Origin: Ilumatobacteraceae bacterium
Lineage (GTDB): Bacteria > Actinomycetota > Acidimicrobiia > Acidimicrobiales > Ilumatobacteraceae
Length of the DNA: 40,438 bases
Direction of reading: 5' to 3'
Assembly: GCA_024644465.1 (NCBI GenBank)
Contig: JAHEKY010000009.1
Span: 16,674-57,111, forward strand
Below the pieces are notes generated by a model. That model worked only from the letters and a program-made list of their open reading frames with translations. It had not been told where the DNA came from and did no database searches. This document shows, piece by piece, positions 7,749 to 28,076 of this stretch (positions within the stretch are counted from its first letter, which is position 1; every line of letters begins with the position of its first letter). Made by a program: the position numbers and the translations under genes.

Positions 7749-8729
7749 GTGCCGACCAATCGTCCCCGTCGCCTCCGCCGCACCGCTGCGCTGCGGGATC
7801 TGGTCGCCGAGACCCATCTCCGCGTCGACGATCTCGTCGCGCCGCTGTTCGTCCGCGAGGCGATCACGTCGCCGCAGCCGATCGAATCGTTGCACGGCGT
7901 CGTGCAACACACCAGGGAGTCGTTGCGCGCCGAGGTGGTCGGCCTCGCCGAGCTGGGCGTCAAGGCGGTCATCCTGTTCGGCGTTCCCGCCGAGAAGGAC
8001 TCCATCGGCAGCGGCGCCGCCGATCCGCAGGGAATCGTGCAGCTCGCACTCGCCGATCTGCGCGTCGACGTCGGCGACGACATCGTCGTGATGTCCGACC
8101 TCTGCGTCGACGAGTACACCGACCACGGGCACTGCGGGGTCCTGGACGAGCACGGCAACGTCGACAACGACGCGACCGTCGAGCTGTACGCCCAGGCCGC
8201 GCTCGCCCAGGCCCGTGCGGGATCGCAGGTGATCGCGCCCAGCGGGATGATGGACGGCCAGGTCGCGGCGATTCGCGAAGCGCTCGATGGCGAGCGCTTC
8301 CACGACGTCGCGATTCTGGCGTACGCCGCGAAGTACGCGAGTGGGCTCTACGGCCCGTTCCGCGACGCGGTCGATGTCACGATCGTCGGCGGCGGCGATC
8401 GGAAGGGCTACCAGCAGGACCATCGCAACGCCCGCGAGGCGCAGCGCGAGATCGACCTCGACATCGCCGAAGGGGCGGACATGATCATGGTCAAGCCCGC
8501 GCTCGCGTACCTGGACGTGATCGCCGAGGCGGCAGCGAGGGTCGACCTGCCGGTCGCGGCGTACCACGTCAGCGGCGAGTACGCGATGATCCACGCGGCC
8601 GCCGAGCGGGGCTGGATCGACGGCGATGCGGTGGCGCTCGAACATCTCACCGCGATCAAGCGTGCCGGTGCGAACGTCATCCTCACCTACTTCACCCGCT
8701 GGTTCGCCGAATCCGGTGCCGAGTCGTAG
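7749..8729 (+). CDS. hemB: Delta-aminolevulinic acid dehydratase (porphobilinogen synthase)
   Basis: The enzyme condenses two 5-aminolevulinate molecules into porphobilinogen. The 326-residue product has the Schiff-base lysines Lys195 (YAAKYASG) and Lys249 (MIMVKP). Its metal site reads SDLCVDEYTDHGHCG with Cys119 and Cys129, but Asp121 replaces the middle cysteine of the three-cysteine zinc site, a mixed pattern that I recall as common in actinobacteria. I chose GTG 7749 because homologues begin near RPRRLRRTAALR; the frame stays open further upstream but that is antisense to the divergent gene. hemL follows 45 bases later. Confidence 0.95.
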   Translation: MPTNRPRRLRRTAALRDLVAETHLRVDDLVAPLFVREAITSPQPIESLHGVVQHTRESLRAEVVGLAELGVKAVILFGVPAEKDSIGSGAADPQGIVQLALADLRVDVGDDIVVMSDLCVDEYTDHGHCGVLDEHGNVDNDATVELYAQAALAQARAGSQVIAPSGMMDGQVAAIREALDGERFHDVAILAYAAKYASGLYGPFRDAVDVTIVGGGDRKGYQQDHRNAREAQREIDLDIAEGADMIMVKPALAYLDVIAEAAARVDLPVAAYHVSGEYAMIHAAAERGWIDGDAVALEHLTAIKRAGANVILTYFTRWFAESGAES

Positions 8730-8774: not shown

Positions 8775-10130
8775 ATGTCGACACCCGAGACCATGATCCC
8801 TGCCTGTGGCCCAGGATGCGCCGCGGCGGGGTGCACGCCGACCGTGTGCGTCGGCGCCGGCGTTCCGTCGAACCACGAGCTGTTCGATCGATCGCGGCGA
8901 GCGATCCCCGGCGGAGTCAACTCCTCGATCCGCGCGTTCCGGGCCGTCGGCGGTGAGCCGTACGTGGTCGCTCGTGCGAGCGGTGCCACGATCACCGACG
9001 TCGAGGGCACGACGTACTACGACCTGGTCCAGAGCTACGGGGCGGTCATCCTCGGCCATGCCCACCCGGCGATCACCGCTGCCGTTTCCCGAGCGGCGGT
9101 CGACGGAACGTCGTACGGCGCGCCGACACCACGCGAGATGAAGCTCGCCGAGGCGATTCGCGAGCGGGTGCCGAGCTGCGATCTCGTGCGGCTGATGAAC
9201 TCGGGGACCGAGGCGACGAGTACGGCGATTCGGCTCGCCCGGGGCGTCACCGGGCGGGATCGCATCGTGACGTTCGCCGGGAACTTCCACGGCGCGACCG
9301 ACGCGCTGCTCGTCGCCGGTGGCAGTGGTGTCGCGACGCTCGGTCTGCCGGGAACGGCGGGCGTGCCGAACGCGGCGGTCGCCGAGACGATGGTCGCGCC
9401 GTACAACGCGGTCCCGGTGCTCGACGAGCTCGTCGCGGCCGTGATCGTCGAACCGGTCGCGGCGAACATGGGCGTCGTCGCCCCGCGGCCGGGGTTCCTC
9501 GAAGGCCTGCGCGCCGAGTGCGATCGCGTCGGTGCACTGTTGATCTTCGACGAGGTGATCACCGGATTCCGGCTCGGCACCGGTGGGGCGCAGGCCAAGT
9601 ACGACGTGACGCCGGACATCACGTGCTTCGGCAAGGTGATCGGGGGCGGGCTGCCGATCGGCGGCGTCGGCGGTCGAGCCGACGTCATGGAGCACCTCTC
9701 GCCACTCGGGCCGGTGTTCCACGCCGGAACGCTGTCCGGCAACCCGCTGGCGACGGCGGCCGGCCTCGCGGCCCTCGACACCCTGACGCCCGACGTGTAC
9801 ATCGAGCTGATGGCACGGGCCCGACACCTCGCCGCCGGGCTGCGCGATGCCTGCGTGGCGGGCGGCTTCCGCGCCTCCTTCCCGGTCGTCGGGACGCTCG
9901 TCGGGATCGTCTGCGGCGACGACGCGGCGCCGGTGCACGACTTCGACGACGCGAAGCGGACCGACGAAGCGGCGTACGCGGCGTTCTTCCGGGCGATGCT
10001 GGCCGAAGGCGTGGCGATGGCGCCGGGCGCCTACGAGGCGATCTTCGTCGGCCTCGCGCACGACGACGCGGTGATCGACGCGATCACCGCTGCCGCCCAC
10101 CGGGCTGCCGTCGCCGCTGCCTCGGGATGA
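8775..10130 (+). CDS. hemL: Glutamate-1-semialdehyde 2,1-aminomutase
   Basis: This PLP enzyme converts glutamate-1-semialdehyde to 5-aminolevulinate, completing the C5 route with HemA. Family landmarks are RRAIPGGVNSSIRAFRAVGG near the start, the cofactor region LMNSGTEATSTAIRLARG, LIFDEVITGFRLG, and the PLP lysine in CFGKVIGGGLPIGG. The 451-residue frame is slightly long. It begins with an unusual stretch containing four cysteines (CGPGCAAAGCTPTVC) before the usual start of homology at SNHELFDRS. A GTG at 8845 would remove most of it, so the start is uncertain. It probably shares a transcript with hemB. Confidence 0.94.
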   Translation: MSTPETMIPACGPGCAAAGCTPTVCVGAGVPSNHELFDRSRRAIPGGVNSSIRAFRAVGGEPYVVARASGATITDVEGTTYYDLVQSYGAVILGHAHPAITAAVSRAAVDGTSYGAPTPREMKLAEAIRERVPSCDLVRLMNSGTEATSTAIRLARGVTGRDRIVTFAGNFHGATDALLVAGGSGVATLGLPGTAGVPNAAVAETMVAPYNAVPVLDELVAAVIVEPVAANMGVVAPRPGFLEGLRAECDRVGALLIFDEVITGFRLGTGGAQAKYDVTPDITCFGKVIGGGLPIGGVGGRADVMEHLSPLGPVFHAGTLSGNPLATAAGLAALDTLTPDVYIELMARARHLAAGLRDACVAGGFRASFPVVGTLVGIVCGDDAAPVHDFDDAKRTDEAAYAAFFRAMLAEGVAMAPGAYEAIFVGLAHDDAVIDAITAAAHRAAVAAASG

Positions 10131-20049: not shown

Positions 20050-20100
20050 CACTCTCGACCGTAGCCCCGCGATCGCCCGGATCACGTGACGGACGGCACA

Positions 20101-20129
20101 GACAACGTTGTGTCAGACACAACTTTGTC
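20101..20129. repeat. Palindrome A, type 1 (core GTGTCAGACAC)
   Basis: Left arm GACAACGTTGTGTC (20101-20114), central A, and right arm GACACAACTTTGTC (20116-20129) pair at 13 of 14 positions. The arms closely match those of palindrome B inside cruF 6.4 kb away. It sits almost midway between the marR-like start and the divergent hydrolase start. Two readings remain: an operator, or a dispersed REP-like element. Confidence 0.8.
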
Positions 20130-20183
20130 TCGGTCGTCGTCACGCTGGGTGCGGTTGCGCCGCCCGCACGCGAGGATGGGCCG

Positions 20184-24869: not shown

Positions 24870-26326
24870 CAGGCGAAGTCCTGGTCGATCATCTCCGCGA
24901 CGATCGCGGCGCTCGTCGCCACGAGTGGCAAACCGCCGCCCGGGTGGCTCGAGCCGCCGACCAGGTACAGCCCCGCGCGAGCACCCCGGTTCGCGGGGCG
25001 GGCGAACGCCGCGCGCATGCCGTTCGAGGACGTCCCGTAGATCGCACCTCCGGGCGATCGGTAGAGCCGCTCGATGTCGGCGGGCGCCATCCGGGCGGCG
25101 AACGTCATCCGCTCGCGCAGGTCGACGCCGTGCTCGGCGAGCCGTGCGAGGACGACGTCGCGATACCGCTCGGTGTCGACGTCGACGTCCGGCGGGGTGT
25201 TGACGAGCAGGAACCAGTTCTCGTCGCCGTCGGGCGCCTGGCTCTGGTCGGTCACTGCCGAGACACAGCCGTAGATCGTCGGGTCGTCCGCGAGTTGGCC
25301 GGCGTCGAGCGCCCGGAACTCCTGGTAGTAGTCGTCGGAGAACCAGACGTTGTGGTGCCCGATGCCGGGTGTCGTACCGCGTGCGCCCACGCACAGAACG
25401 AACCCGCTCGTCGACCGGTCGGCCCGACGCACCCGGCGCAGTGCACGATCGTCCGGCAGCAGGTCGGCGTAGAGATGCTCGGCGTCGACGTTCGCGATCA
25501 CGATGTCAGCGTCGACGATCTCGCCGTCGGCGAGCTGGATCCCGCTGACCGAGCGCGCGTCCGCCGCGACGTCGACCACCTCCGTCGACGTGCGGACCTC
25601 GACGCCGAGTTCGATCGCCACCCGCTCGAACGCATCACGCAGCGTGCCGAGACCGCCCATCGGGTACCAGCAGCCGTACTCGGCCTCGACGTGCGGGATG
25701 CACGCCATCGTCGCCGGCACGTGTCGCGGCGACGACCCGGAGTAGGTGGCATATCGGCCCACCCATTGGCGGAGGTGGTCGTCGTCGAACGTTTCGCGAG
25801 CCGCGTCGTTCAGCGTGCGCAGTGCGTCGATGCGCAGCAGGTCGCGCGGCGAGTTCATCCGGCGCAGCACGGTGAGCGGGCCGGTCATCGGCCCGGCGAA
25901 GAACGTGCGCTGCGCGACCTTCCAGATCTCGCCGCCGTGCGCGTCGAACGCGCGCCACGCCGACCCGGCGCCGGGCCGGAACGCCTCGAACGCGGCCGCG
26001 GTTGCGTCGTTGTCGTCGTGAACCGTCAGGGTGGCACCGTCTCGCCAGAAGTAACGGAACTGCGGGTCGAGGCGGACGAGGTCGACTTGCTCGGCGAGCG
26101 CCGTGCCCGCGAGGCGGAACACGTCGTCGAAGACGTGCGGCAGCGTCAGCAGCGACGGCCCGATGTCGAACGTGAAGCCGTCGCGGGTGTACGTCGACAG
26201 CTTGCCGCCGACGCGGGCGTTGCGCTCGAAGATCGTGACGTCGTGGCCGGCGCTGCGGAGCCGGATCGCTGCCGCGAGCCCGCCGACCCCACCGCCGACG
26301 ACCGCGATGCGGCGAGATGCGTTCAT
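24869..26326 (-). CDS. CrtI/CrtD-type carotenoid desaturase (second copy)
   Basis: The 485-residue flavoprotein starts [20 protein letters not shown] and has [20 protein letters not shown] and a C-terminal [20 protein letters not shown], the CrtI-family FAD signature. It differs clearly from the other desaturase in this window. Its [15 protein letters not shown] region and its position between a cruF-type hydratase and a glycosyltransferase suggest a CrtD-type 3,4-desaturase acting on 1-hydroxy carotenoids. Its ATG overlaps the cruF stop (ATGA), so it is translationally coupled. CrtO-like or isomerase roles cannot be excluded. Confidence 0.82.
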
Positions 26327-27096
26327 CGGCCCGTCACCGCTCGGGCGACGCCGACGGCGGCGAACGGAAGCATCGCCGCGCCGCCGACGGCCGCGACGAG
26401 CGGATCGCGGAAGTACCGCGCGAAGCCGAGTGTCTCCATCACGCCCATGTACGCATACGTCCCCACCAGCCGCCCGTCCGTCAAAGTTGTGTCTGACACA
26501 ACTTTGACGGGCAGGAGGGTGTCGAGGGCGGTCATCACGGCGAGGCCGGTGGCGAACCAGCCGAGGAAGTTGGTGAGCGGGATGCCGCGGTAGACGCCGC
26601 GCCGGACCCACGCCCAGTAGCCCTCGCCGACCATCTGTGGGTCGAGGAACAGATCCCACGCGGTCAGCGCGGCCGACCCGAGCACCGCCCGCCGTGCCCG
26701 CGTCGACGACGACCCGAGTGCGGCGTGTGCGGTTTCGCGCGCCGGGAGCGCCATTGCGAACCAGGCGAGCGGCACGATCGCCGGCACGTGCGCAACCTGC
26801 GGCTGCAGCGCCCGTGTGTAGGCGTACCGCCCGAACGGGACGCCCGTCATCGTTCCGACCCGCTCGACGACGGTCGTCGCCGCGGCGACCGTGCCCGCGG
26901 CGACCGCCGTGCGCCGGGCCCCCCAGCGGCGCACTGCGTTCGCGGTCGTCGTGGCGAACAGCCCGGTGACGACCACGGTCGACAGCACGCGGCGGCCCGC
27001 CCCGCGCTGCGGCAGCAACGGCGTCGCGATCATGCCGGCGACCGTGGCGAGGCCGGCAACGGCTGCGACGCGGTCCGCTGAGCCGATGCGGGCCAT
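26323..27096 (-). CDS. cruF: CruF-type carotenoid 1',2'-hydratase, carrying an inserted palindrome
   Basis: The 257-residue membrane protein has the CruF-family signature. [17 protein letters not shown] comes first, then [34 protein letters not shown], and [20 protein letters not shown]. CruF adds water across the terminal double bond of lycopene-type ends to give a 1'-hydroxyl. About six hydrophobic helices are visible. Between LDTLLP and [10 protein letters not shown] lies [12 protein letters not shown], encoded by a perfect 33-base palindrome (26478-26510); it falls in a loop and keeps the frame. The start at 27096 overlaps the crtB stop by one base. Confidence 0.85.
26478..26510. repeat. 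Palindrome B, type 1, perfect 33 bp, inside cruF
   Basis: The arm CCGTCAAAGTTGTGTC (26478-26493), a central T and the arm GACACAACTTTGACGG (26495-26510) are perfect inverse complements. The central 25 bases match palindrome A with one exception besides the centre base. In the cruF reading frame it encodes most of [12 protein letters not shown]. The local base composition is much more AT-rich than the surrounding codons, as expected for an insertion. Confidence 0.92.
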
Positions 27097-28039: not shown

Positions 28040-28076
28040 GGCGCTACATCTGGTGCCTGGCACCAGATGTGACGCC
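28040..28076. repeat. Palindrome C, type 2, over the crtI stop codon
   Basis: ACATCTGGTGCC (28046-28057), a central T and GGCACCAGATGT (28059-28070) pair perfectly. After a two-base mismatch, four more pairs (GGCG with CGCC) extend it to 37 bases. The core GTGCCTGGCAC shares the GTGYCWGRCAC plan of the other palindromes. It supplies the last codons and the stop of crtI and would form a strong hairpin in the mRNA just before crtB. Confidence 0.9.

Follow-up and report, generated by a model that had tools for sequence, protein, structure and literature searches.

Short palindromes that are dispersed in bacterial genomes and linked to a transposase have been described repeatedly, and the literature already covers REPs, their occurrence inside genes and REP 'orthoswitches'. 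RAYT-associated REPs (Nunvar et al. 2010, PMC2817692) are found in many dispersed, mainly extragenic copies, and their transposase, marked by a His-hydrophobic-His motif and a Tyr, lies between two inverted palindromes and evolves faster than its neighbour; the REPs tabulated there have a conserved head (GTAG, GTGG) and an imperfect palindrome. The GTAG/CGTC REPs carry an unpaired tag at one end, adjoin gene 3' ends, provide stop codons with their termini and include intragenic members that are read within genes, among them Rickettsia conorii RPE-4 and RPE-6, which are placed in the class tagged with an unpaired CGTC; the CGTC repeats are said there to have no transposase of their own (PMC3733652). 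REPINs are inverted doublets; within a genome they make up a population of sequences that is linked to a RAYT and has a single-stranded hairpin (PMC3116915, PMC8049555). In the REP 'orthoswitch', orthologous RAYTs of related genomes have different flanking REP versions; the model is that old copies stay and decay as new ones spread, and its authors describe the molecular mechanism as speculation only (PMC3686654). The palindrome reported here, from an actinobacterium, is probably (at roughly 0.8, judged from sequence) one of the copies of a small repeat that is non-autonomous and belongs to a RAYT-type (REP-associated Y1/HUH) transposase.

The window analysed is a stretch of 40,438 nucleotides from a draft genome of an Ilumatobacteraceae bacterium (3.37 Mb, 195 contigs, 83% complete). 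Its features that concern us are the following:

20100..20130, no strand: second copy of the palindrome, with one arm base unpaired, in a gap between divergent gene calls (marR and hydrolase in the first-pass annotation), located by core search.

26323..27096, minus strand: cruF-like gene (Caroten_synth) with the palindrome in its reading frame, located by gene call and Pfam match.

26478..26510, no strand: 33-bp perfect palindrome, probable copy of a RAYT-linked repeat, in frame within cruF, identified by arm pairing and genome-wide exact copies.

The palindrome at 26478-26510 is CCGTCAAAGTTGTGTC-T-GACACAACTTTGACGG, with 16-nt arms around one central base, exactly as the first-pass annotation had described it, and as single-stranded DNA it has a folding energy of -16.3 kcal/mol, a z of about -7 relative to 200 shuffles. 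The gene at 26323-27096 on the minus strand matches Pfam Caroten_synth (PF04240, E 2.4e-42), the label cruF being that of the earlier annotation, and its in-frame reading of the palindrome gives the 12 residues that had been predicted. A near-identical copy had also been proposed 6.4 kb away. Searched with at most 3 mismatches, the core AAGTTGTGTCNGACACAACTT occurs at two places in the window, 26484-26504 (exact) and 20105-20125 (1 mismatch), against an expectation of 0.00 in 100 shuffles, and the distant copy is consequently counted as real. The assumption that the two conserved cruF blocks are normally close together fared less well: the loop holding the palindrome varies in length among 20 aligned relatives, several of which have extra residues there, so that a net lengthening of cruF itself by the palindrome is unsupported. 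Unrelated residues stand at this place in 19 of these 20 relatives, and the remaining one, the sister species G001, has a sister palindrome. A single-sequence structure prediction of cruF, with a mean pLDDT of 43.6, was set aside.

The 29-mer GTCAAAG...CTTTGAC is found at 19 exact places in the genome, the cruF copy among them. The 19-mer AGTTGTGTCAGACACAACT has 59 exact copies in the source genome, one in G001, which belongs to the same genus, and none in the other 58 of 60 genomes, while the 17-mer core GTTGTGNCNGNCACAAC has 71 copies in the source genome and 94 in G001 and is absent from the eight remaining genomes of this genus. Among 395 genomes sampled across the class, a set that did not list G001, the core is present in four, namely the source genome, G069 of the same family (19 copies), G140 (2) and G137 (1). 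The two outcomes named beforehand as fatal to the insertion idea, residues shared across the homologues with unrelated codons and a palindrome restricted to cruF, were both absent.

The anatomy of the repeat was followed in the 71 own copies and 78 G001 copies recovered in the DNA fetched. The arms are symmetric, with pairing that extends to about position 14-15. At pair 13, which may be A-T or T-A, the two bases covary: they match in 54/70 own copies, where shuffling gives a mean of 28.6 and a maximum of 39, and in 59/77 G001 copies, where it gives 37.0 and 50. Pair 2 carries the compensatory change that distinguishes the two species, being T-A in 70/71 own copies and C-G in 73/78 of those of G001; three or four G001 cores are mixed, with one arm per version. 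Unlike the tabulated RAYT-associated REPs, the repeat is symmetric to its ends, without an unpaired head, and unlike the GTAG- and CGTC-tagged superfamilies it has no unpaired GTAG or CGTC end. A CGTC-type REP was considered because many copies start with CGTC, and was rejected because this CGTC is mostly paired. With the REPINs the repeat shares the character of a within-genome population tied to a RAYT and a single-stranded hairpin, but the inverted doublet is not its unit: only 10/71 own and 8/78 G001 copies have another copy within 150 bp, and 61 of the 71 own copies are singlets.

Several further palindromes were observed in the course of this survey. Five close pairs, 34-53 bp apart and with opposite central bases, resemble REPIN doublets (L057 4707/4760, L070 2500/2543, L062 2500/2534, L073 2454/2496 and L030 1453/1500). 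A second family, TACATCTGGTGCCNGGCACCAGATGTA, has the inner GTGCCNGGCAC in common with the repeat and different arms; it is present in both species, at 28040-28076 of the window and at L038 ~2873 in the source genome, and at L136 ~2600, L178 ~1257 and L224 ~1880 in G001. A third family, TCAGGCAGGTGTCNGACACCTGCCTGA, has three perfect copies in the fetched G001 DNA (L140 ~3966, L200 ~7410, L186 ~11827) and none in the fetched own DNA. In G069, from another genus of the family, the 19 copies are of the core GTTGTGCCNGGCACAAC, and the one that was read (L261) has different outer arms; in G140, from another family, two cores lie 60 bp apart (L263).

A search of the source genome for Y1_Tnp gave a single match (C125:8371-8694), and this Y1/HUH transposase gene sits between inverted copies of the repeat at 8272-8300 and 9140-9168 of the same contig (locus L048), the arrangement described for RAYT-associated REPs. 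The gene codes for 275 aa and ends within the downstream copy, which provides its TGA, just as the termini of the GTAG/CGTC REPs provide stop codons; it reads this copy in a different frame from the other coding copies and stops there. G001 has an orthologous RAYT beside the same neighbour gene, which we take to be a hexose-phosphate mutase in both species, and it too lies between two palindromes, of the sister version, with GTGCC/GGCAC replacing GTGTC/GACAC; its reading of the downstream copy is VKVVPGTTL. As in the orthoswitch, orthologous RAYTs of related genomes are thus flanked by different versions of a repeat. In each genome, the two copies that flank the gene have opposite central bases. 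By eye, the RAYT alignment keeps HFH/HYH and the Tyr of RYVHRN, presumably the HxH and catalytic Tyr positions of the family. Residue identity between the two species is 184/275 for the RAYT and 274/313 for the neighbour, in agreement with the faster evolution noted for RAYTs. Y1_Tnp matches occur in 8 of the 10 genus genomes, some of them near other palindromes; a second, partial match in G001 (C47) lies at a locus from which this palindrome is absent. In G006, a Y1_Tnp gene (L123) is located between two inverted copies (987-1019 and 1898-1928) of a perfect palindrome with an unrelated sequence, CGGACGGTTTGTCTCNGAGACAAACCGTCCG, which shows that the genus also has RAYT-repeat pairs with other sequences. 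The RAYT of the source genome would recognise the single-stranded hairpin and then copy or move it.

Gene calls made with a purpose-made codon-use gene finder place 35 own copies in tandem gaps, 24 in convergent and 4 in divergent ones, 5 inside genes and 3 at contig ends. The repeat is thus mainly extragenic, as are the RAYT-associated REPs, and like the GTAG/CGTC REPs it adjoins gene 3' ends, most copies standing immediately after a stop codon: among copies adjoining such an end, 47/59 in the source genome and 45/63 in G001 lie within 10 bp of it, compared with 12% for random placement in G001 gaps. Convergent gaps hold 24 of the 63 classified intergenic own copies, whereas random placement would put 7% in convergent and 39% in divergent gaps. 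Although coding calls cover about 92% of the G001 stretches, only 5/71 own and 8/78 G001 copies are inside gene calls, and copies within genes are therefore rare. Insertions may persist chiefly where they are nearly harmless, behind genes or, in frame-keeping lengths, in variable loops and tails of proteins.

The five own copies within genes are carried by the cruF-like protein, a DUF5317 protein, an AMP-binding (acyl-CoA) ligase whose best solved relative is benzoate-CoA ligase, a Lon protease and a HAD/reductase-like protein. All five are read in one frame (frame 0), as (V/D)KVVSDTTL(S/T). In G001, six of the eight in-gene calls likewise use frame 0, which here gives VVPGT; they belong to cruF, the ligase, three C-terminal tails and the RAYT. 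The other two, g23 and g47, are read in another frame and were left out as doubtful starts, g23 lying on a stretch aligned with the window's 20.1-kb gap and g47 beginning at residue 3 of its call. With shared sites counted once, 9/9 read-through sites are in frame 0 (9/11 with g23 and g47), and the chance of all nine falling in this frame, calculated by hand from the frames open per copy, is 1 in 5832; the own RAYT, whose frame stops inside the copy, is excluded from this count. The idea put forward in the first-pass annotation, of a dispersed element that got into a coding sequence and left it intact, is upheld as far as sequence can show by the 71 core copies and the five in frame within genes. 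The likeness to the Rickettsia palindromic elements that it had drawn stands as one of kind only, a dispersed palindrome in frame in five unrelated proteins, the unpaired CGTC tag of the RPE-4/RPE-6 class being absent. In contrast to the CGTC repeats, a RAYT is present here and the read-through copies share one frame.

The effect of the repeat on its host proteins is clearest for Lon, where 11 residues (33 nt) are missing at the repeat spot in G005 and G004. The position is a variable linker ahead of the Walker A motif, in which two other members of the genus have long unrelated inserts, and the Lon orthologue was not found in the G001 draft. By this alignment, Lon is a case of an insertion that lengthened its host protein. 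In seven relatives of the HAD-like protein the C terminus is no more than about a dozen residues from the repeat start, and its G001 counterpart has a decayed palindrome at the same point, read as VVPGT. The repeat is absent from the DUF5317 protein of G001, and the ligase loop at the repeat site is variable in relatives. In the analysis of empty sites, intergenic DNA had diverged too far, and neither target duplications nor exact ends of an insertion were obtained; the one clean case is the 33-nt difference in Lon.

The aligned stretches of the source genome and G001 are mostly 75-90% identical (84% around the two window copies), and both flanks could be placed in the fetched G001 DNA for 28 of the 71 own copies. 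In 25 of these 28 intervals G001 has a palindrome too (22 C-G, 2 T-A, 1 mixed) and in three it has none. Thus each species has its own version in 22/28 intervals, cruF and the ligase among them, and both have the same version in 2/28; in the orthoswitch model, by contrast, old copies stay and decay. Most of the G001 stretches had been selected for holding copies, and on those not so selected 10/11 rows have a palindrome; some rows share one G001 copy (o22, o23) or cover longer G001 gaps (o39, o53, o54). A base-for-base aligned flank on at least one side is available for nine sites, eight of them T-A in the source genome and C-G in G001 and one T-A in both; this set comprises the 9 of 19 rows that were paired in the interval comparison and had a flank of at least 14/20, the 10 dropped being near chance level or unpaired. 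Two of the eight switched sites are inside genes, cruF and the ligase, at the same codon, and at the cruF site Ser-Asp in the source genome stands against Pro-Gly in G001. Shared sites are mixed as to the orientation of the central base, which was left out of the argument.

In our estimation there is a negligible probability that chance or local selection produced the cruF palindrome independently of the other copies. It lies in a variable loop where several relatives have extra residues, but 29 of 29 bases agree with a form that occurs exactly at 18 further places in the genome, and with the nil expectation of the core in the window this led us to reject a chance palindrome. A more serious alternative is that the palindromes are selected host features, such as bidirectional terminators, mRNA-end hairpins or operators, and that the transposase gene merely happens to lie between two of them. 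The strong preference for gene 3' ends and for convergent gaps (24/63 against the 7% of random placement) is what such features would produce. However, a like placement is described for REPs in PMC3733652, so both readings may hold, and neither the copies within genes, nor the lack of the exact core in 58/60 genomes, nor the lack of a T run after the copies inspected by eye is what it would lead one to expect. Since both orthologous transposases are flanked by their own species' version and copies occur in coding regions, we do not prefer a terminator or operator reading and regard it as improbable.

Within the RAYT-linked reading, the difference between the two species could have arisen in two ways. 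We favour, with some reserve, replacement of the old copies in place in one lineage, reading frames included, over the same spots having been hit twice. The version of the RAYT and its repeat would have changed, and old copies would have been replaced by conversion or by re-insertion at the old hairpin; host-protein residues would then have changed along with the repeat, to Ser-Asp here or Pro-Gly in the sister species. If instead the two versions of the RAYT-linked repeat had inserted independently into spots that both prefer, one would expect what is seen in some shared intervals (o0, o38), where the copies stand at shifted positions; moreover, both versions favour the base pairs right after a stop codon, which allows two hits on one gap. 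Against this, eight of the nine sites with a base-for-base flank differ in version, and in cruF and the ligase the two versions occupy the same codon, which makes independent insertion rather unlikely in our view. Going further than in-place replacement as such, we suggest only tentatively that a one-base-pair stem change in RAYT specificity led to near-complete in-place replacement of the repeat in one sister species, in intergenic and coding DNA alike. The RAYT would then be a genome-wide conversion engine that rewrites Ser-Asp/Pro-Gly in unrelated proteins, and the constant frame (KVV-turn-TTL, perhaps a small beta hairpin) would be a tolerated repeat-encoded peptide.

In the literature searched, mostly outside subscription journals, we recognised no report of in-place REP switching or of Ilumatobacter REPs. 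As far as that literature goes, three points are new: an actinobacterial RAYT with a repeat that is symmetric and untagged, the use of one reading frame, and the switch of version site by site. Two sister species with orthologous RAYTs, a one-base-pair difference and dozens of comparable sites would open the mechanism of the orthoswitch to direct test. The coding copies are a case, in an actinobacterium, of in-frame repeats for which a candidate transposase can be identified, and suggest that one version switch can change several host proteins together.
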